Assembly (NCBI GenBank): GCA_007556525.1
Contig: SWJS01000002.1
Span: forward strand, 124,001-188,000
DNA from: Lysobacteraceae bacterium CU05-9
GTDB lineage: Bacteria > Pseudomonadota > Gammaproteobacteria > Xanthomonadales > Xanthomonadaceae
Direction of reading: 5' to 3'
DNA length: 64,000 bases
In this document: positions 2,658-64,000 of the stretch, in pieces
Position numbering within the stretch: position 1 is the stretch's first letter
Layout of the letters: every line of letters starts with the position of its first letter
Made by a program: the position numbers and the translations under genes
Notes under the pieces: model-generated
Seen by the model: only the letters and a program-made list of their open reading frames with translations
Told to the model about the DNA's origin: nothing
Database searches by the model: none

Positions 2658-4103
2658 ATGAACGCCCAAGTTAAGACTTTTTCGCAAGACGGCGATTACA
2701 AGATCGCTGATATCACCCTGGCCGATTGGGGCCGCAAGGAACTCGACATTGCTGAGCATGAAATGCCAGGTTTGATGTCGATCCGCAAGAAGTACGCAGC
2801 AGAACAATCCCTCAAGGGCGTCCGCGTCACGGGTTCGCTGCACATGACGATTCAAACCGGTGTTTTGATTGAGACGTTGGTTGACCTCGGCGCTGACGTG
2901 CGTTGGGCATCGTGCAATATTTTTTCGACGCAAGATCATGCGGCTGCAGCGATTGCGGCGGCTGGCGTTCCTGTGTTCGCCTGGAAGGGTGAGACGCTGG
3001 AAGAATATTGGGACTGCACCTTGGCTGCATTGTCGTTCCCGGACGGCAAGGGCGGTTTCCTCGGTCCGGAACTCGTCGTTGATGACGGCGGCGACGTCAC
3101 GTTGCTGATCCACAAGGGTTATGCGCTGGAAACGGCGGGTGACCGTTGGTGCGATACCCCATCGTCGAACCACGAAGAACAAGTCATCAAGAACTTGCTG
3201 AAGCGTGTCGAAAAGGAACGTCCTGGTTTTTGGACGACCGTTGTCCGTGACTGGAAGGGTGTTTCGGAAGAAACGACGACCGGCGTGCACCGTTTGTACC
3301 AGTTGTCGCAAGACGGCGAATTGCTGATTCCTGCGATCAACGTCAATGACTCGGTCACGAAGTCGAAGTTCGACAACTTGTACGGCTGCCGCGAATCGTT
3401 GGCTGACGGCCTGAAGCGCGCGATGGACGTCATGTTGGCCGGTAAGGTTGCAGTCGTCTGCGGTTACGGCGACGTTGGTAAGGGTTCGGCTCACTCGCTG
3501 CGCGCATACGGCGCACGCGTTGTCGTCACCGAAATCGATCCAATCAACGCACTGCAAGCTTCGATGGAAGGCTTCGAAGTGAACACCGTTGAAAGCACCT
3601 TGGGCCGCGGTGACATCTACGTCACGACGACGGGTAATAAGGATGTTTTGACGTTGGATCACATGCGTCAAATGAAGGACCAAGCGATCATCTGCAACAT
3701 CGGTCACTTCGACAACGAAATCCAAGTCGACGCTTTGAAGGAATCGGGCGCGACGCACTTGAACATCAAGCCACAAGTGGACAAGTTCACTTTTGACGGT
3801 GGTAACAGCGTGTTCCTGCTGGCTGAAGGTCGCCTGGTCAACCTCGGTTGCGCAACGGGACACCCAAGCTTCGTCATGTCGAACTCCTTCTCGAACCAAA
3901 CGCTTGCACAGATCGACCTGTGGAAGAACAAGGATACGTATGAGAAGAAGGTGTACATTTTGCCGAAGAAGCTCGACGAAGAAGTTGCACGTTTGCACCT
4001 GGAGAAGATCGGCGTCGTCCTGACCCGTCTGACTCCGGAACAAGCGGCGTATCTGGGTGTGGACATCGACGGTCCATACAAACCAGAACATTACCGTTAC
4101 TAA
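2658..4103 (+). CDS. ahcY: Adenosylhomocysteinase (SAH hydrolase)
   Basis: Hydrolyses S-adenosylhomocysteine to adenosine and homocysteine, relieving product inhibition of methyltransferases. The 481 residues match the usual bacterial form, which carries an insert relative to the archaeal type. The NAD-binding motif GYGDVGKG is at residues 269-276 and the C-terminus PYKPEHYRY is typical (C-terminal residues contact NAD in the tetramer). The start is fixed by ACGGAG seven bases upstream of the ATG and by alignment with the family. It is the first gene of an operon behind the SAH riboswitch, with metF 13 bases downstream, so one signal should control both homocysteine release and supply of methyl-tetrahydrofolate. 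Confidence 0.97.
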
Positions 4104-5718: not shown

Positions 5719-6630
5719 ATGAATTACCCCGAGTGGATTTGGCAGAACGGCGAAGTCAAGAAATGGGCGGATGCCACGACGCATGTGATGTCGCATGTGG
5801 TGCATTATGGGTCGTCGGTTTTTGAAGGGATTCGCGCCTACGACACGCCGAAGGGTCCTGCCGTATTCCGCTTGACCGATCACATCAAACGCTTGCACGC
5901 CTCGGCCAAAATCTACGATTTCGAAATCCCCTACTCCACTGAAGAGTTGGTTTCGGTCTGTAAGGAAATGGTCCGCAAAAATGATTTGAAGGACGCCTAT
6001 CTTCGCCCGGTTGCTTATCGTGGTTTGGGTGGTTTTGGCTTGTCTGCCGAAACACCCATCGATGTCGTCGTCGCGACTTGGTACATGGGTGCATATCTGG
6101 GTGATGGCGTGCTCGAAGAAGGCATCGATGCGTGCGTATCATCGTGGCAACGTTTCGCACCGAACACGATTCCTGCAGGCGCGAAAGCCGGCGGCAATTA
6201 TCTCTCCGGCCAATTGGTCGCGCGTGAAGCACGTCGTCTCGGTTTCGGCGAAGGCATTGCGTTGGCCTCGACTGGTTTGCTCTCTGAAGGTGCCGGCGAA
6301 AACCTCTTCCTCATCTTCGACGGCGTGTTGAACACAACGCCGGTGAGCGCCGCGTTGCTCAACGGCATCACGCGCAACACGATCATCACCTTAGCGCGCG
6401 AGATGGGCCTCGAAGTCGTCGAACGCGATCTGCCGCGCGAGTACCTTTATTTGTGCGACGAATTGTTTATGTGCGGCACCGCTGCAGAAATCACGCCAAT
6501 CCGATCGGTGGATGGTCGTGTCGTCGGTACTGGTCGCGCCGGCGAAATCACGCGCAAGTTGCAGCAGGCTTACTTCGATTTAGTGAAGGGCAAATCGGAA
6601 GACAAGCACGGTTGGTTGGAATACGTCTGA
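5719..6630 (+). CDS. ilvE: Branched-chain amino acid aminotransferase (class IV, PLP)
   Basis: Transaminates the keto acids of valine, leucine and isoleucine with glutamate. From the ATG it has 303 residues, the normal length. HYGSSVFEGIRAY (29-41) is the class IV signature; the PLP lysine is Lys156 in AGAKAGGNYLSG. A GTG four codons upstream is an alternative start; the ATG is preferred because MNYPEWIWQNG matches the usual beginning. The gene is monocistronic: its own promoter precedes it, and a terminator hairpin sits 57 bases after the stop inside repeat locus 2. Confidence 0.95.
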   Translation: MNYPEWIWQNGEVKKWADATTHVMSHVVHYGSSVFEGIRAYDTPKGPAVFRLTDHIKRLHASAKIYDFEIPYSTEELVSVCKEMVRKNDLKDAYLRPVAYRGLGGFGLSAETPIDVVVATWYMGAYLGDGVLEEGIDACVSSWQRFAPNTIPAGAKAGGNYLSGQLVAREARRLGFGEGIALASTGLLSEGAGENLFLIFDGVLNTTPVSAALLNGITRNTIITLAREMGLEVVERDLPREYLYLCDELFMCGTAAEITPIRSVDGRVVGTGRAGEITRKLQQAYFDLVKGKSEDKHGWLEYV

Positions 6631-6687
6631 CACTCGCACTGCGATTGTTCGTGCTGAGTTGGAGTCGGAGTTAGAGGAGTGAGTAAT

Positions 6688-6709
6688 GGGCGCCATTGGC
6701 GCCCTTTTT
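6688..6709 (+). terminator. Intrinsic terminator after ilvE
   Basis: A perfect 7-bp stem, GGGCGCC (6688-6694) with GGCGCCC (6698-6704), loop ATT, followed by five T residues. It belongs to the GGCGCC hairpin type found with the hexamer arms elsewhere in the window. The T run overlaps the stop codon of the convergent small gene. Confidence 0.85.
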
Positions 6710-6959
6710 ATTTGCGTAACTTGTTGAAGATGTATCGGGATGCGAAAGCACTGCAAACAAGAGTCAGCGCATAGAGAAGCATCGTCATGACAAACGCAAC
6801 GCGTTCAGACGCGAATGAAATTGTGTCTGGACCGCGCGTCGGTCCGTCGATTGAGCCAGTCGTCAAACCAATGAAAAGCATCACACCGGAATATGCGGCA
6901 AGCAAACCTAAGATTAGTAAAGCGATGTAATGCGCTGGCTTTTCTGCTTTCATGCTCAT
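6708..6959 (-). CDS. Small two-helix membrane protein, unknown
   Basis: 83 residues with two clear hydrophobic helices: YIALLILGLLAAYSGVMLFIG (about residues 11-31) and FVMTMLLYALTLVCSAFA (about 55-72), joined by a polar loop containing TRGPDT. The C-terminus is basic (YIFNKLRK). I recognise no family. ATG codons at 6959 and 6953 are both possible starts. It is bracketed by the two arms of repeat locus 2 and converges on ilvE, ending inside the T run of the ilvE terminator. It is a plausible real gene because both helices are clean, but no motif supports a function. Confidence 0.65.
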   Translation of the reverse strand: MSMKAEKPAHYIALLILGLLAAYSGVMLFIGLTTGSIDGPTRGPDTISFASERVAFVMTMLLYALTLVCSAFASRYIFNKLRK

Positions 6960-7011
6960 AGTTCAGCAGTTTAAAGTTAGCGGGCTGTTACTAAACCGTC
7001 TAACTCTACCT

Positions 7012-8358
7012 CTAACTCGCCGTCGAAGACGGCCTCGTTTTGTGTGGATCAAAATACAACGAAGCCTCCACACCCTTCGGCGCATGTGGCAACACGGAGA
7101 CTTCCCAGCCGTACAACGCGCAAAGACGACGCACGATGGATAGGCCGATGCCGCCGCCGTGTGAGTGGCCGACGTGCGTGCCGCGGTAGCCGCGCTGGAA
7201 CAACTTCGACATGTCGTCGACGGAGAGACCTGGACCGGAATCGATGACACGCACGACGTCGCCTTCGAGGCGCACGACGACTTCACCTTCCGGCGTGTAC
7301 TTCACCGCGTTGCCGATGAGATTGCCGAGGGCGACGGAGACCGAGGATTCCGGTGCGTTGACGACGAGGCCGGGCTCGCCTTCGAAGCGGATGGTGACGT
7401 TTTTGCGGCCGATTTGTTCGCGGTGTGCATCAATCAATTGTTCGCACAACTTGGCGATGTCCACGGAACCCGTGCCGCGTTCGTTTCGTGAAAGCAGCAA
7501 CATCGAACTGATCAAGTCCGTACATTGTTGTTCGGAACGCTGGATGCGTTTGATGCGGGTCAATGTCCGCTCATCCAACGAAGGCGATGCCATCAATAAT
7601 TCGACGGCACCGCGGATGACTGCCAGCGGTGTGCGCAATTCATGGGAAACGTCCGCGTTGAATTCCTGATCGCGCTGCACGACTTCGCGCAGACGGTCGG
7701 AGTAATCGTCGAGTGCTTGTGCGAGCTGTCCCACTTCATCGTTCGGCACACGCTCGGTCTTGAACTTCATGTCGGGGTCGCGGCTGGATTTTTTGAGATC
7801 GGAAGCCAGCTCGGTCACCGGACGCAAAACCGTATTCGCCAGCCACCAACCGACGACCAAAGAAATGACTAAAGAAGCGCCTGCCAAACTCAGCAGCAAC
7901 ATCGTGACGCGGCGCTGGCGTTGAATCGCATCCGTCTGATCGGTGGCTACGAAAAACCAGTACTTCGGATCCTTGCGGACGGCGAGGCGGTAGTTGAAGC
8001 TTTTGCCGGAATCATCCAAGCCTTCGACGTTGTAAACGCCGTTGGGAAATTCCGTCCACTCAGGAAATGGAATTTTCTCCGGTTCACTCGACAGGAAACG
8101 ATACAGTTTGAGGTCGGTGATTTCGCCGAACTGCTTCTTTGGGTTTTTGTAAGAATCTTCAGCCGCGCGATCAAGGATGTTCGTGAGGTAGGTGGTGCGG
8201 TCAAGGTCGAGCATGCTACTGACTTTGTAAGTCGTGTAGATGAACGTCGAAACCAGCAATAGCGCCAGCAGCCCAAAGGCCAGGATCAGACGCGTCCGTA
8301 AGGTGCGCCTGAAGCGTGTTGCGGATGCTTTCCCCGTGGCCCTTGGAATGCTGGACAT
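7012..8358 (-). CDS. Sensor histidine kinase (ColS/VgrS-like)
   Basis: Membrane sensor kinase of 448 residues. TM1 is about residues 24-43 and TM2 about 152-174, enclosing a roughly 108-residue periplasmic domain; a HAMP segment (175-228) follows. The phosphoacceptor is His239 in SHELRTPL. The N box is LGNLIGNAVKYT (344-355), G1 DSGPGL (373-378) and G2 GGGIGLSI (401-408). The periplasmic loop contains a single E-x-x-E (Glu100-Trp-Thr-Glu103). It lies 19 bases downstream of its response regulator gene, so the pair is an operon. Its TAG stop lies within a hexamer repeat arm. The ColS/VgrS assignment rests mainly on the partner regulator. Confidence 0.92.
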   Translation of the reverse strand: MSSIPRATGKASATRFRRTLRTRLILAFGLLALLLVSTFIYTTYKVSSMLDLDRTTYLTNILDRAAEDSYKNPKKQFGEITDLKLYRFLSSEPEKIPFPEWTEFPNGVYNVEGLDDSGKSFNYRLAVRKDPKYWFFVATDQTDAIQRQRRVTMLLLSLAGASLVISLVVGWWLANTVLRPVTELASDLKKSSRDPDMKFKTERVPNDEVGQLAQALDDYSDRLREVVQRDQEFNADVSHELRTPLAVIRGAVELLMASPSLDERTLTRIKRIQRSEQQCTDLISSMLLLSRNERGTGSVDIAKLCEQLIDAHREQIGRKNVTIRFEGEPGLVVNAPESSVSVALGNLIGNAVKYTPEGEVVVRLEGDVVRVIDSGPGLSVDDMSKLFQRGYRGTHVGHSHGGGIGLSIVRRLCALYGWEVSVLPHAPKGVEASLYFDPHKTRPSSTAS

Positions 8359-18864: not shown

Positions 18865-18927
18865 TTTCGCGTCGTGCGCCGAAGCCCGATCTGGCATCCG
18901 GGGAAAAGTAAATTTGCGTAGCTTTTC

Positions 18928-18970
18928 AAAAGATGAACTTGTGTCCATGGACAGAAGTTCATCTTTTTTT
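18928..18970. terminator. TGTCCATGGACA palindrome, copy 2, acting as terminator
   Basis: Near-perfect 38-base palindrome (18929-18966): AAAGATGAACTT, G, TGTCCATGGACA, G, AAGTTCATCTTT; only one G-G mismatch per half. It is followed by four more T on the plus strand and has A residues on the other side, so it could stop transcription from both the M28 peptidase and the convergent methyltransferase gene. It shares core and arms with 2345-2392. Confidence 0.8.
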
Positions 18971-48445: not shown

Positions 48446-49096
48446 ATGCCCCACGCCAGACAGCACGCTATCCAACATTCGCAGGCGCGAACGCGCGAAC
48501 GTCGCCATCGATTGGCCCACGAAGCTGCGAAGATCATTGCACAGGGTGGAACGCGGGATTTTTTGCAAGCTAAGCAGAAGGCCGCGGAGCGCCTCGGCAT
48601 CTTCGACGACGCCTCCCTGCCCCGCAACCGTGAGATCGAAGAAGCGTTGCGTGAGTATCAACGCTTATTCGTGCCGGACCAGGACGACGCGTTACGTGTG
48701 CGCCGCGAAGCATCGGTTGAAGCGTTGCAGTTTTTCTCGGCGTTTTCTCCGCGTTTGGTTGGCGCCGTGTTAGATGGCACGGCTGACTCGCGCTCGCCGG
48801 TGACGTTACATGTCCACACGGACGAGAACGAAGCGGTCGATCGTTGGCTCACGCAAAACAACATCGCCTACGATGTCCGCACGCGCCGCATCCGCCTCGA
48901 CCGTCATCGCGATTCCGATGTCACTTGCTATGTGTTCGACGCCGATGGTTTGCGTTTCGAAGTGATCGCGTTGCCTTATGCGGTGTTGCGGCAGGCGCCG
49001 TTGTCGCCGGTGGATGAGAGGCCGATGAAGCGCGCGAATCTAGCGCAGGTTGAGGGGATGTTGACGGAGTCTGAGATCGCCGATTACCTACGTTGA
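48446..49096 (+). CDS. Nucleotidyltransferase-fold-like conserved protein
   Basis: 216 residues from ATG 48446, which has GAGGA upstream; the longer frame crosses the mrcA terminator and is rejected. The N-terminal helical part (AHEAAKIIAQGGTRDFLQAKQKAAERLG, PRNREIEEALREYQRLF) is followed by an alpha/beta domain with PRLVGAVLDGTADSRSPVTLHVHTDE, which resembles a nucleotidyltransferase G-S motif region, and ends QAPLSPVDERPMKRA. Similar proteins are common in pseudomonads and xanthomonads and lack an assigned function. Its TGA stop is the first codon-overlap with a hexamer repeat arm. Confidence 0.82.
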   Translation: MPHARQHAIQHSQARTRERRHRLAHEAAKIIAQGGTRDFLQAKQKAAERLGIFDDASLPRNREIEEALREYQRLFVPDQDDALRVRREASVEALQFFSAFSPRLVGAVLDGTADSRSPVTLHVHTDENEAVDRWLTQNNIAYDVRTRRIRLDRHRDSDVTCYVFDADGLRFEVIALPYAVLRQAPLSPVDERPMKRANLAQVEGMLTESEIADYLR

Positions 49097-49173
49097 GTTA
49101 GAGGTAGAGGTAGACGATTGAGTGAAAGCCGCTGCGCGAGCGGTCTCACTGGTTTAACTCAGACTCCAACTGG
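49094..49173. repeat. Hexamer-arm repeat pair around a hairpin (locus 3)
   Basis: The left arm (49094-49125) has GTTAGAG/GTAGAG hexamers, TAGACGATTGAGTGA. The central hairpin is CCGCT-GCGCG-AGCGG (49129-49143). The right arm (49146-49173) begins TCACTGGTTTAACTC. It sits between two convergent genes and supplies stop codons to both: TGA of the NTase-like gene in the left arm and TAA of chrA in the right arm, where it also encodes the last ChrA residues (SWSLS). Confidence 0.75.
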
Positions 49174-50290
49174 CGATGGCGCAGAGTGTGACGATCAAAA
49201 TCGGTGATGTTCGCATCAGCTGCAGCATCAGAAATGCCACCAGTGCAATTACGCCGTCGTGCATGTTGACGAGTGCAGTCTTTGCGACGGGATTGACCCA
49301 TGCGGCAGCGAGGATGCCGACGACTGCGGCGTTGACGTAGTTGAGGATGGTGCGGGAGGTGACGTTGTTTTTGAGGGAATCCCACATTGGAAGAACGCCC
49401 GCAAGCAAAAGGAATGACGCGAGGAAGATCGCCAGCGTTGCCAGCAATGCGAATTGCCAACCGCCGATTTGCGCGCCGAGATACGTCGCAAACGTAAAGA
49501 GCGGACCTGGCAATGCTTGGGCAATGCCGTAGCCGGCGAGGAAGTCGTTCGCGCTGATCCAACCTTTGGCGACCGTTTGCGTTTCAAGCAGCGGCAACAC
49601 GACATGCCCACCCCCGAACACCAACGCACCCGTCCGATAAAACCCACTGAACATCTCGAGGGATTTCGTGTGCGCGAACAATGGCAGTGCGATCAACAGT
49701 CCAAAGAATATTGCGAGATAGCCAAAGCGCGGTTTGGCGAAAGTTGCAGGGGTTCTTTTTGGCGAACGCATCCAACCGTAAAGTGCCGCCGCGCCGATCA
49801 CGATCAGTTGCATCATCGACTCTGGGATGATCAGTAGCAACGCCGCGATGACGACCGCAATAATCCGTCGCTCCCAATCCGGGCAAAGCGATTGCGACAT
49901 ACCGACAACGGCGTGGGCGACGATGGCGACTGCGGCGATTTTAAGTCCGTGCACGACACCGCTCGATGCCCAGTCCGGGTACTGAAGTAACAGTGCAGCC
50001 GCTGCAAACATGATCAACGCCGATGGCAAAGTGAAACCGAGCCACGCGGCCAATGCGCCTTTCACTCCCGCGAACCGATAGCCGATTCCCATGCCAACCT
50101 GACTGCTCGCCGGTCCCGGCAAAAACTGACACAACCCCGCCAAGTCCGCATACTCCGCTTCAGTCATCCAGCCGCGTTTGGTCACGAACTCCGTGCGGAA
50201 ATAACCGAGGTGCGCGATGGGACCGCCGAAGGATGTGCAGCCAAGCCGAAGGAACGTCCAGAACAATGAGGTAGTCGATGTAGTGCGCAT
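49154..50290 (-). CDS. chrA: Chromate ion transporter, CHR family
   Basis: 378-residue inner-membrane protein of the long (two-domain) CHR family, with about ten hydrophobic helices. The duplicated signatures are FGGPIAHLGYFR with GLCQFLPGPASSQ in the N-terminal half and FGGGHVVLPLL with GIAQALPGPLFTF in the C-terminal half. Family members export chromate, but many have unproven substrates. The ATG at 50290 is preferred over a GTG six codons earlier. Its 3' end is built from the right arm of repeat locus 3. Repeat locus 4 lies just upstream, so the gene is flanked by repeats. Confidence 0.93.
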   Translation of the reverse strand: MRTTSTTSLFWTFLRLGCTSFGGPIAHLGYFRTEFVTKRGWMTEAEYADLAGLCQFLPGPASSQVGMGIGYRFAGVKGALAAWLGFTLPSALIMFAAAALLLQYPDWASSGVVHGLKIAAVAIVAHAVVGMSQSLCPDWERRIIAVVIAALLLIIPESMMQLIVIGAAALYGWMRSPKRTPATFAKPRFGYLAIFFGLLIALPLFAHTKSLEMFSGFYRTGALVFGGGHVVLPLLETQTVAKGWISANDFLAGYGIAQALPGPLFTFATYLGAQIGGWQFALLATLAIFLASFLLLAGVLPMWDSLKNNVTSRTILNYVNAAVVGILAAAWVNPVAKTALVNMHDGVIALVAFLMLQLMRTSPILIVTLCAIASWSLS

Positions 50291-50334
50291 TTTGGAACAC
50301 TCTCGCACGAATTGCGTTTCACTTTCCAGCGCAC

Positions 50335-50399
50335 AAAAAAACGGAGCGCCAATGGTGCCCCGTGCTTTGACTCACTCGTCTAACTCTAACTATTACTTG
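50335..50399 (-). terminator. gltA terminator with single hexamer arm (repeat locus 4)
   Basis: The arm (50372-50399) reads TCACTCGTCTAACTCTAACT on the plus strand and contains the TAA stop of gltA. The hairpin ACGG-A-GCGCC-AAT-GGTGC-C-CCGT (50341-50363) follows, and on the minus strand runs into seven T residues (50341-50335). No matching left arm is found; chrA begins 45 bases further left. Confidence 0.85.
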
Positions 50400-57800: not shown

Positions 57801-57983
57801 TGGAGGTAGAGGTAGAGGTAGACGATTGAGTGAAAGCGCGCCGGTGGCGCGAATAAAAGCGGCGCCTGTTGGCGCCGGATACTCACTGGTCTAACTCAAA
57901 CTAATACCCACAGCGCAGCCATAAAAGAAACGGCGCCCATCGGGCGCCGCATCACTCAATCGTCTAACTCTAACTATAACTGG
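57801..57983. repeat. Three-arm, three-hairpin repeat cluster between rpoZ and spoT (locus 5)
   Basis: The left arm (57801-57832) has four GTAGAG-like hexamers then TAGACGATTGAGTGA. Hairpins follow at 57837-57851 (CGCGCC-GGT-GGCGCG) and 57860-57877 (CGGCGCC-TGTT-GGCGCCG), then a right arm (57880-57907, TCACTGGTCTAACTC). A third hairpin (57931-57949) and another right arm (57952-57982, TCACTCAATCGTCTAACTC) complete the cluster. The arms are mutual inverted repeats. Confidence 0.8.
57921..57949 (-). terminator. Intrinsic terminator of rpoZ
   Basis: CGGCGCCC (57931-57938) pairs with GGGCGCCG (57942-57949); on the minus strand it is followed by TTTCTTTTAT. With its arm it is almost identical to the reverse complement of the pepQ terminator at 63890-63953. 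Confidence 0.88.
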
Positions 57984-57991
57984 GTGCGACG

Positions 57992-58291
57992 TTAGTCGTC
58001 ACCCTTCGCCAGATCTTCATCAGACACGAGCTCAGCCGCCTTCCACTCGATCGCTTCACGGTCGCGGCGTTCGCGCTCGGCCTTCTCGACCTGGTTGATG
58101 TAATCTTCGTTGACCAGACGGTCAGCAATTTCGCGCAGCGCAAGCACGGTTGGCTTGTCCTTCGTTTCGCGGTTGTCGAGCATCGGCTCAACACCGTTCG
58201 CCAGTTGACGGGCGCGCTTGGCTGCCATCATCACCAGTTCGAAACGGTTGTCGACGACTTCGAGGCAATCTTCTACGGTAATACGTGCCAT
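57992..58291 (-). CDS. rpoZ: RNA polymerase omega subunit
   Basis: Smallest core subunit; supports beta' folding and part of the ppGpp site. 99 residues beginning [30 protein letters not shown], with [25 protein letters not shown], and an acidic tail. It lies between gmk (112 bases upstream) and the repeat cluster; the TAA stop is nine bases from the repeat arm. Confidence 0.96.
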
Positions 58292-62554: not shown

Positions 62555-63886
62555 ATGTCCCTCGATTCCACTCTCGCCGCCGAATATCCCGCTCACATCG
62601 CTGAAGTCAGCAAACGCGCCACCGTTGCGCTCGAACGTGGGGGCTTCGATCATCTGGTCATCCCGTCCGGCGTTTTGCGCTATCAAGTGTTTGATGATCG
62701 CGACTATGCGTTCGCGGTGAATCCGAATTTCAAATATTGGGTACCGATCACCAACGCGCCGAGTTCGTGGATCGTATTTACGCCGGGCTCGAAGCCCAAG
62801 TTGATTTTCATGCAGCCGCATGATTACTGGCATTCGGTACCGCAAGATCCATCCGGTTATTGGGTTGATCAATTCGACATCGTGATCATTCGCGAAGCCG
62901 ACGAAGCGTTGAAGCATCTCCCATCATCGGGCAAGCTCGCGATCCTTGGTGAAGAAAATTCGGCGTTGGGTTCCTTCGTCCCAAACAACCCTGCGCCTGT
63001 TCTGGATTACCTCGACTACCACCGCCATTCCAAAACCCCTTACGAAATTACGATGATGCGTGAAGCCACGCGCATCGGCGTGTTGGGCCACCTCGCTGCC
63101 GAGAAAGCATTCCGCGAAGGCAAGTCGGAGTTTGCAATCCATCTCGCGTATCAGGAAGCAACGCAGCAAGAACCATTCGATCTGCCGTACATGAACATCA
63201 TTGGCTTGAATGAGAATGGTGCAGTTTTGCACTATACCAACCGTGCGCGCACTGCCCCACCAAAGTTGCTGTCGTTCCTGATTGATGCGGGCGCGTCGTT
63301 CGGCGGTTACGCATCCGACATCACACGCACTTACTCGTACGTGCAGGATGAGTTCCAAGCGATGGTCGATGCGGTGGACAAAGCGGAGCTGGAATTGTGC
63401 GCGATGGTTGTACCAGGTGTAGATTACAAGGAAATCCACATGGCGACGCACATGGAAATGTCGCAGATCCTTAACGACTTCGGCGTGATTACTTGCTCGC
63501 CGGAAGCGGCGTTGGCGGGGCGGATTAGCAATGCGTTTTTCCCGCATGGCATTGGTCACCCGATTGGCTTGCAGGTGCACGACGTTGCCGGCTTCCATGC
63601 TGCGGATACCGGCGGTCGCATCGAGCGTCCGGTTGGTCAGCCATACTTGCGCTTGACGCGTGAACTGATGGAAAACTCCGTCGTCACCATCGAGCCTGGC
63701 ATCTACTTCATTCAAATGTTGCTCGACGAAGTGCGCGCGACGGATGCAACCAAGGACGTCAACTGGGATCGCGTGGCTGAATTCATGCCTTATGGCGGCA
63801 TCCGCATTGAGGACAACGTGGTGGCACGCTCGAGCAGCGCGCCCTTGAATCTCACGCGTGAGGAGTTTGCGAAAGCGCGCTCTTGA
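62555..63886 (+). CDS. pepQ: Xaa-Pro dipeptidase (M24 family)
   Basis: Dinuclear-metal prolidase; 443 residues from ATG 62555, exactly the length of E. coli PepQ, with AAGG upstream. The longer frame adds 12 residues without support. Metal ligands are visible: Asp in DAGASFGGYASDITRTYSY (two), His in FPHGIGHPIGLQVHD, Glu in EPGIYF and Glu in GGIRIEDN. Such enzymes also hydrolyse some organophosphate esters. Followed three bases later by repeat locus 6 and its terminator. Confidence 0.96.
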   Translation: MSLDSTLAAEYPAHIAEVSKRATVALERGGFDHLVIPSGVLRYQVFDDRDYAFAVNPNFKYWVPITNAPSSWIVFTPGSKPKLIFMQPHDYWHSVPQDPSGYWVDQFDIVIIREADEALKHLPSSGKLAILGEENSALGSFVPNNPAPVLDYLDYHRHSKTPYEITMMREATRIGVLGHLAAEKAFREGKSEFAIHLAYQEATQQEPFDLPYMNIIGLNENGAVLHYTNRARTAPPKLLSFLIDAGASFGGYASDITRTYSYVQDEFQAMVDAVDKAELELCAMVVPGVDYKEIHMATHMEMSQILNDFGVITCSPEAALAGRISNAFFPHGIGHPIGLQVHDVAGFHAADTGGRIERPVGQPYLRLTRELMENSVVTIEPGIYFIQMLLDEVRATDATKDVNWDRVAEFMPYGGIRIEDNVVARSSSAPLNLTREEFAKARS

Positions 63887-63889
63887 GCA

Positions 63890-64000
63890 CTAGTTATAGT
63901 TAGAGTTAGACGCTGTAGTGATGCGGCGCCCGATGGGCGCCGTTTCTCTTTTTGCGCCATTCGGCGCGCTTTCACTAAACCGTCTACCTATACCTCTACC
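63890..64000. repeat. Hexamer-arm repeat pair with two hairpins (locus 6, continues past window)
   Basis: The left arm (63890-63920) has GTTATAGTTAGAGTTAGACG then TAGTGA. Hairpins are at 63924-63942 and 63954-63967 (GCGCC-ATTC-GGCGC). The right arm starts at TCACTAAACCGTCTA (63972) and its CTACCT/CTATAC hexamers run to the window edge. The left arm begins four bases after the pepQ stop. Confidence 0.8.
63924..63953 (+). terminator. Intrinsic terminator of pepQ
   Basis: CGGCGCCC (63924-63931) pairs with GGGCGCCG (63935-63942), loop GAT, followed by TTTCTCTTTTT. Confidence 0.9.

Follow-up and report, generated by a model that had tools for sequence, protein, structure and literature searches.

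The window analysed here is the whole stretch of 64,000 nucleotides from position 124,001 to 188,000 of its contig, in a genome of 2.347 Mb assembled in 15 contigs. At 49097-49170 it contains a compact inverted dimer, situated between an open reading frame on the forward strand that ends in TGA (49094-49096) and the chromate transporter gene chrA on the reverse strand. The first half of the dimer is a forward-strand type A arm (49097-49126; three hexamers at 49097-49114 and a box at 49115-49126), and the second is a reverse-strand type B arm (49141-49170; box at 49141-49152, hexamers at 49153-49170); between the arms lies a core at 49127-49140, a hairpin in the predicted fold, and the pair spacing is 37. 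The type B arm contains the chrA stop, a reverse-strand TAA at 49154-49156 within the innermost unit of the array, and encodes the end of the ChrA protein, SWSLS, as an earlier, sequence-only reading of this DNA had described. The same reading had placed the TGA of the facing gene inside the type A arm; this stop is flush with the arm and adjoins its array, and only its final A is a base of the arm consensus. The open reading frame concerned had been called NTase-like, a label for which we found no Pfam match.

All stops named by that reading were checked base by base in the window sequence, and those of chrA, gltA and a histidine kinase gene do lie inside hexamer arrays. The TAA of gltA (50393-50395) is contained in a degenerate third unit, GTAATA, of a single reverse-strand arm 3' of the gene (50367-50396, array 50379-50396), after which comes a hairpin with a T run resembling an intrinsic terminator at about 50334-50363. 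The TAG of the kinase gene (7012-7014) falls in the outer unit of a reverse-strand type A arm (6987-7016, array 6999-7016). On the forward strand, a type B arm (6658-6687) is found 27 bases past the stop of an aminotransferase reading frame (5719-6630), next to a terminator-like hairpin at about 6688-6711. A larger dimer at 57805-57907 comprises a forward type A arm (57805-57834), two hairpins and a reverse type B arm (57878-57907). Two further type A arms, each followed by a terminator-like hairpin, lie 11 bases past the rpoZ stop at 57992-57994 (arm 57951-57980, reverse strand) and 6 bases past pepQ, which ends at 63886 (arm 63893-63922, forward strand); the claim that both of these stops are within nine bases of an arm is correct for pepQ and incorrect for rpoZ. 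The reverse-strand partner of the pepQ arm (63971-64000) ends at the window edge and is whole in a stretch fetched separately (L044). Pfam supports the identification of ChrA as a chromate transporter, GltA as citrate synthase, RpoZ (Rpb6) and PepQ.

The divergent spacer upstream of ahcY (2658-4103) harbours another pair, comprising a forward type B arm (2276-2305) and a weak reverse type A arm with a score of 14 (2486-2515). Directly after this pair and just 5' of ahcY is an SAH riboswitch (RF01057, 2531-2628), the sole match of an Rfam scan at gathering cut-offs. At 2345-2394 and 18922-18967 there is another palindromic repeat, roughly 46 bases long (AAAGGTTGAA...TGTCCATGGACA...TTCAACCTTT), whose copies are 82-87% alike; a similar sequence comes after the minus-strand arm in L042, another fetched stretch, near 6470.

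Genome-wide, the pattern GAGKTAGACNRTTNAGTGA has 77 sites at up to two mismatches, against none in a reversed control, and the pattern GAGTTAGANNAGTGAGT has 45 sites at up to one mismatch, against one in the control. The window and 53 stretches fetched around pattern sites, 355,139 bases together, were scanned with two weight matrices; these stretches were chosen as arm-bearing, and arms elsewhere that match no pattern would escape. The 355 kb contain 121 distinct arms, 75 of type A and 46 of type B, and the reversed sequences contain none at the same threshold. Two of 97 regular-expression hits fall outside this set, one at window position 50268 (the chrA start) and the other inside a gene (L069, 2478). 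Contigs C1 and C11 start with a nearly identical arm pair at the same coordinates (1-400 of L031 and of L057), and both pairs are included in the count; this likeness makes it probable that a single longer repeat has a copy at each of the two contig ends.

The 30-base arm follows a simple plan, in which an A and three hexamers, such as GTTAGA, GGTAGA and GGTAGA (the 18-base array), are followed by a 12-base box that ends in approximately AGTGA. A type A arm reads approximately AGTTAGAGGTAGAGGTAGAC(G/T)ATT(T/G)AGTGA and a type B arm approximately AGTTGGAGTCGGAGTTAGAGGAGTGAGT. The sequence-only reading had supposed that the array grows by hexamers while keeping the reading frame. The unit count is fixed: exactly three perfect units are present in 63 of the 75 type A arms and four in one, while three are present in 35 of the 46 type B arms under a looser definition of the unit. 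These counts refute a growing microsatellite in this genome.

Most arms (92 of 121) are organised as 46 head-to-head pairs with the arms outside, neighbours being defined as lying no more than 400 bases apart; at this distance there are no tail-to-tail neighbours and three in the same direction. Pair spacings are concentrated at 27-39 and 53-58, with a tail reaching 341, and the cores mostly contain one hairpin in the short class or two in the 53-58 class, while a few have none. Inner hairpins were judged by eye in the predicted folds of 36 close pairs, most of which have one, and there is none in the folds of some compact pairs (for example, L066 2428 and L071 1705). Near-identical core modules recur at unrelated loci, such as TGCCGCAGGCGCTCTTGCGCGC (L063) and TGCCGCAGGCGCTATTGCGCGC (L065). 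In 26 of these 36 folds, at least 12 of the outermost 18 bases are paired with the opposite side of the element. Across 46 pairs (the window and L031-L129), the left arm of an element does not match its right arm any better than it matches shuffled partners, and when arm types are treated separately the resemblance between the two is lower than for shuffled partners. This absence of co-variation counts against an RNA stem between the arms that is kept by selection, and the pairing across the element looks like a by-product of common descent. Long perfect palindromes may be avoided, or the two ends may have separate identities.

Gene ends were taken from a codon-usage ORF caller made for this analysis, and a scripted test found none of the 121 arms inside a called gene. 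The gene end that an arm faces is a 3' end in 82 cases and a 5' end in 37, two arms without a called outside neighbour being omitted from the distance counts. Thirty of the 82 overlap or abut the stop. If D denotes the distance in bases between the stop and the end of the 18-base array, a flush stop having D=18, there are 14 arms at D=18, eight at D=17, none at D=19 and eight below 17. A further 52 lie beyond D 18, of which the 28 at D 19-34 amount to 1.75 per position; against that density, the 22 arms at D 17-18 have a Poisson probability of 3e-11. The sequence-only reading had called for a genome-wide tally of arm-to-stop distances against shuffled positions. In the tally made here a stop coincides with the outer array edge (D 17-18) in 22 of 119 arms (18.5%) as against 0.45% of 20,000 random intergenic placements, and a stop is 1-30 bases away for 54 of the 119 as against 7.5% of such placements. 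The overlap of arms with stop codons is real and far beyond chance.

Random placement of elements within their own spacers gives a simulated mean of 10.7 flush cases, and none of 5000 runs reached the 21 observed; a cruder formula, which treats tightly filled spacers as flush at both ends, expects 15.6. Where 20 or more bases are free (57 elements), six are flush against 1.2 expected (P 0.0009), so that nearly filled spacers account for much of the flush class. Element pairs for which both neighbours are known lie between convergent genes in 21 of 44 cases; among all 211 spacers of the same stretches that measure 40 bases or more, with or without an element, 39 are convergent (Fisher P 1e-4). 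Unidirectional elements are closer to the 3' end in 29 of 35 cases, and three pairs lie between divergent genes.

Sorted by D modulo 3, 37 arms leave a remainder of 0, 29 of 2 and 16 of 1, and it is in this last frame that the array spells TAG. Among the flush stops there are 11 TGA, six TAA and five TAG; among 263 better-scoring complete genes the corresponding numbers are 105 TGA, 125 TAA and 33 TAG. TGA also directly precedes the array in 13 of the 37 arms that face 5' ends, whereas about 8% of A bases in these sequences are preceded by TG, and either TGA or TAA precedes 14 of the 37. This excess indicates that TGA GTTAGA tends to be the sequence of the element's own outer end, which makes that end a natural stop cassette in two frames, with TGA in one and TAG in another. 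Since the element end often carries TGA, a flush TGA borne by the element and a native one are told apart only by the protein ends of relatives.

We compared such protein ends for several genes. ChrA, with SWSLS-TAA encoded by the arm, was set against eight relatives, from distant organisms by their titles, at 42-51% identity and, for one fragment (L095), 73%; seven relatives extend 2-11 residues further. The stop of GalE is the TAG of an arm; each of its 13 closest relatives, out of 29 fetched, exceeds it in length, by 1-58 residues. The histidine kinase, which likewise stops at the TAG of its arm, is longer than 17 of 21 compared relatives (the closest 21 of 29 fetched; one, L235, has a stop in its aligned tail, making its length meaningless). 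GltA ends in DKRK-TAA, while 25 of 28 readable relatives end in R one residue earlier and 27 of the 28 use TGA; a further relative, L120, runs off its contig end. For IspG, which is flush with its arm, 27 of 29 relatives are longer, the difference being a few variable residues. Comparison with relatives, which the sequence-only reading had proposed for chrA, gltA and the kinase, shows the tails of ChrA, GalE and the kinase to differ where the arm begins, and that of GltA by a single residue. RpoD is the opposite case, of the kind that this reading had said would refute its view: the protein ends in FLDVE-TGA with the arm immediately after, and the stop codon has the same position in 29 of 29 loci read from relatives without the repeat.

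An NCBIfam scan of 20 proteins at flush or overlapping arms gave no match for three, and several reach the end of their profile: RpoD (630/631), IspG (363/364), and proteins called Dcp-like (680/681), Rep-like (666/668), CysJ-like (597/597), RlmI-like (396/396) and Dpp5-like (654/655) because their scores are under the curated NCBIfam cut-off. The GalE match stops at 327/332 and that of TtcA at 272/295, with ten residues past the match. These full-length ends and the relatives together indicate that the element mostly occupies true gene ends, and on these comparisons it rewrites weakly conserved C-terminal tails while leaving conserved ones intact. The suggestion that it inserts at or defines 3' ends holds as regards position at 3' ends, overlap with stops well beyond chance and, in some genes, the supply of the stop and the final residues (SWSLS in ChrA, about one residue in GalE, the kinase and GltA); that it defines gene ends as a rule is not supported. 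Two tandem genes of L038 (389-2575 and 2847-4946, the second being Dcp-like) have C-termini that are alike, with arms flush with a TAG and a TAA respectively.

Terminator-like hairpins, in a simple hairpin-plus-T scan, occur within 90 bases past 40 of the 67 arms that lie no more than 60 bases from a stop, and in seven of 67 singly shuffled copies. Of 191 genes that lack an arm, 60 have such a hairpin no more than 120 bases from the stop (Fisher P 7e-5 against the arm set). The element contributes part of this signal itself, through its hairpin and the TTTCACT after it.

Among 395 genomes of the same family, a search with the GAGKTAGACNRTTNAGTGA pattern found the 77 sites of the own genome and one or two matches in each of 28 of the 394 others; among the matches listed in other genomes, all are at two mismatches, and the reversed control likewise matches scattered genomes once or twice. 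A previous sample of 80 genomes, own included, had given 1-3 matches in eight of 79 others. By these pattern counts the element is absent from the 394 other genomes, bar one or two chance-like matches. One arm pattern had no exact match in viral contigs. A RAYT-type transposase (PF01797, Y1_Tnp) was searched for in the own genome with no candidate; the search found this domain in E. coli and in relatives, with 41 of 59 other genomes searched having one. Nor did 36 close pairs reveal a target-site duplication, as at offsets 0-6 and lengths 2-5 no case had P of 0.05 or less against shuffled partners, and with unequal offsets no match of at least four bases was found in three or more pairs. The target-site duplication expected of a classical MITE with a DDE transposase was not found in those pairs. 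No empty site is visible, because no other genome with the arm family was found, and in the absence of PF01797 and of target-site duplication, mobility is inferred only from the dispersed near-identical cores.

Given the anatomy, the copy number, the restriction to one genome in the sample, the 3'-end position and the stop overlap, all directly observed, we think it probable that the family represents genome-specific REP/REPIN-like dimers that spread as a non-autonomous mobile element and were sieved to gene ends. The unit is a 30-base arm with a short GC hairpin, two units usually standing head to head with the arms outside, and the family would have spread by means of a transposase since lost from the genome. 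Its copies survive almost only outside coding sequence. The outer end often starts with TGA, with TAG in another frame, so that a copy that landed on a gene's stop or its final codons would still end translation at once; such immediate termination, and selection against other positions within genes, would have left copies flush with stops. The order in the RNA would then be gene, stop, arm and hairpin, and in many cases the hairpin would be, or enclose, an intrinsic terminator. The excess at exact stops is greater than selection and random insertion readily give, which leaves room for target choice. We offer only tentatively, and as rather improbable, the stronger proposal that the end combines a built-in stop cassette with stop-codon targeting, which would permit harmless colonisation of gene ends, even that of the essential rpoD.

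Target choice could also act alone, if a mobile element took stop codons (T-G/A-A) as its insertion target and were not sieved by selection. The 22 arms at D 17-18, beside none at D=19 and 1.75 per position at D 19-34, speak for this, as do the six flush elements against 1.2 expected where at least 20 bases are free and the TGA or TAA before 14 of the 37 5'-facing arms. However, where an arm faces no gene end, a preceding TGA is equally explained as part of the element end, target-site duplication was not found and 52 of the 82 3'-facing arms lie beyond D 18, and we consider target choice by itself unlikely. A non-mobile 3'-UTR or terminator module, evolved in place and selected for RNA processing, termination or ribosome release, would suit the order of gene, stop, arm and terminator, the terminator-like hairpins at 40 of 67 arm-bearing 3' ends compared with 60 of 191 without an arm, and the 29 of 35 unidirectional elements closer to the 3' end. 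It is nonetheless improbable, since 37 arms face 5' ends, three pairs lie between divergent genes, unrelated loci share near-identical cores, none of the 394 other genomes has more than two matches, and the two arms of an element pair no better than arms matched at random. A simple hexamer microsatellite expanding at gene ends would account for the hexamer periodicity, but the number of units is held at three (in 63 of 75 type A arms and, by the looser unit, 35 of 46 of type B) and a conserved box follows, which makes this explanation scarcely credible.

Compared with known systems, the dimers that we regard as probably mobile and sieved most resemble REP sequences; a likeness to integron attC core sites, as we presume these to be arranged, was set aside because the motif order seemed reversed. 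A literature search by sequence letters gave no description of the arm family, the matches listed being on unrelated subjects by title, and in the literature searched no family is described that has a triple-hexamer arm, lacks a RAYT and is aligned with stops at single-base level. The triple-hexamer family looks new.

The closest precedent is in the account of GTAG-tagged REPs by Di Nocera (2013; PMC3733652), which describes intergenic repeats composed of a short tag and a palindrome, arranged as head-to-head dimers and located close to 3' ends between convergent or unidirectional genes. REP termini that provide stop codons are already in print there, P. entomophila being among the organisms covered, and the phenomenon of supplying or adjoining stops is on such precedents known in kind. 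The two share a short stem-loop after the tag (here in most close pairs), inverted dimers, high copy number, extragenic location and a 3'-end position with stop overlap. They differ in that the tag here is an 18-base triple hexamer with a 12-base box, so that the stem comes after some 30 bases of arm and not after four; that type A arms have GGTAG units while those of type B are mostly GTTAG, not GTAG; and that no RAYT is encoded. CGTC-tagged REPs, in the same source, are mostly head-to-head dimers without a dedicated transposase, with CCA-like tails and stems of 8-9 bp; here the arm-box junction, read as its complement, is TCGTCTA, a likeness that extends to four letters only.

REPINs and BIMEs associated with RAYTs (PMC2817692; see also PMC3116915) have two inverted repeat units around a short variable core and are dispersed in the genome, and REPs close to or immediately past the rayt stop codon are noted as well (PMC2817692). 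Inverted units, short variable cores and dispersed loci are alike here, although the own genome has no Y1_Tnp protein. For E. coli, REPs up to 15 nt past stops are discussed in a section that cites earlier work for lowered translation at less than 16 nt (PMC12306157); both kinds come shortly after stops, but here the 30-base arm separates the stop from the first GC hairpin. Since its tag differs and no RAYT was found, the family is not put forward as a strict member of the GTAG REPs. It offers a REP-like repeat with a fixed triple-hexamer tag in a RAYT-less genome, a single-base view of how a dispersed repeat can occupy exact gene ends, and a clear-cut case in which to ask if REP-like elements arrive there through target choice or selection. 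By analogy, it is best filed as a REP/REPIN-like element that would work like a GTAG REP dimer.
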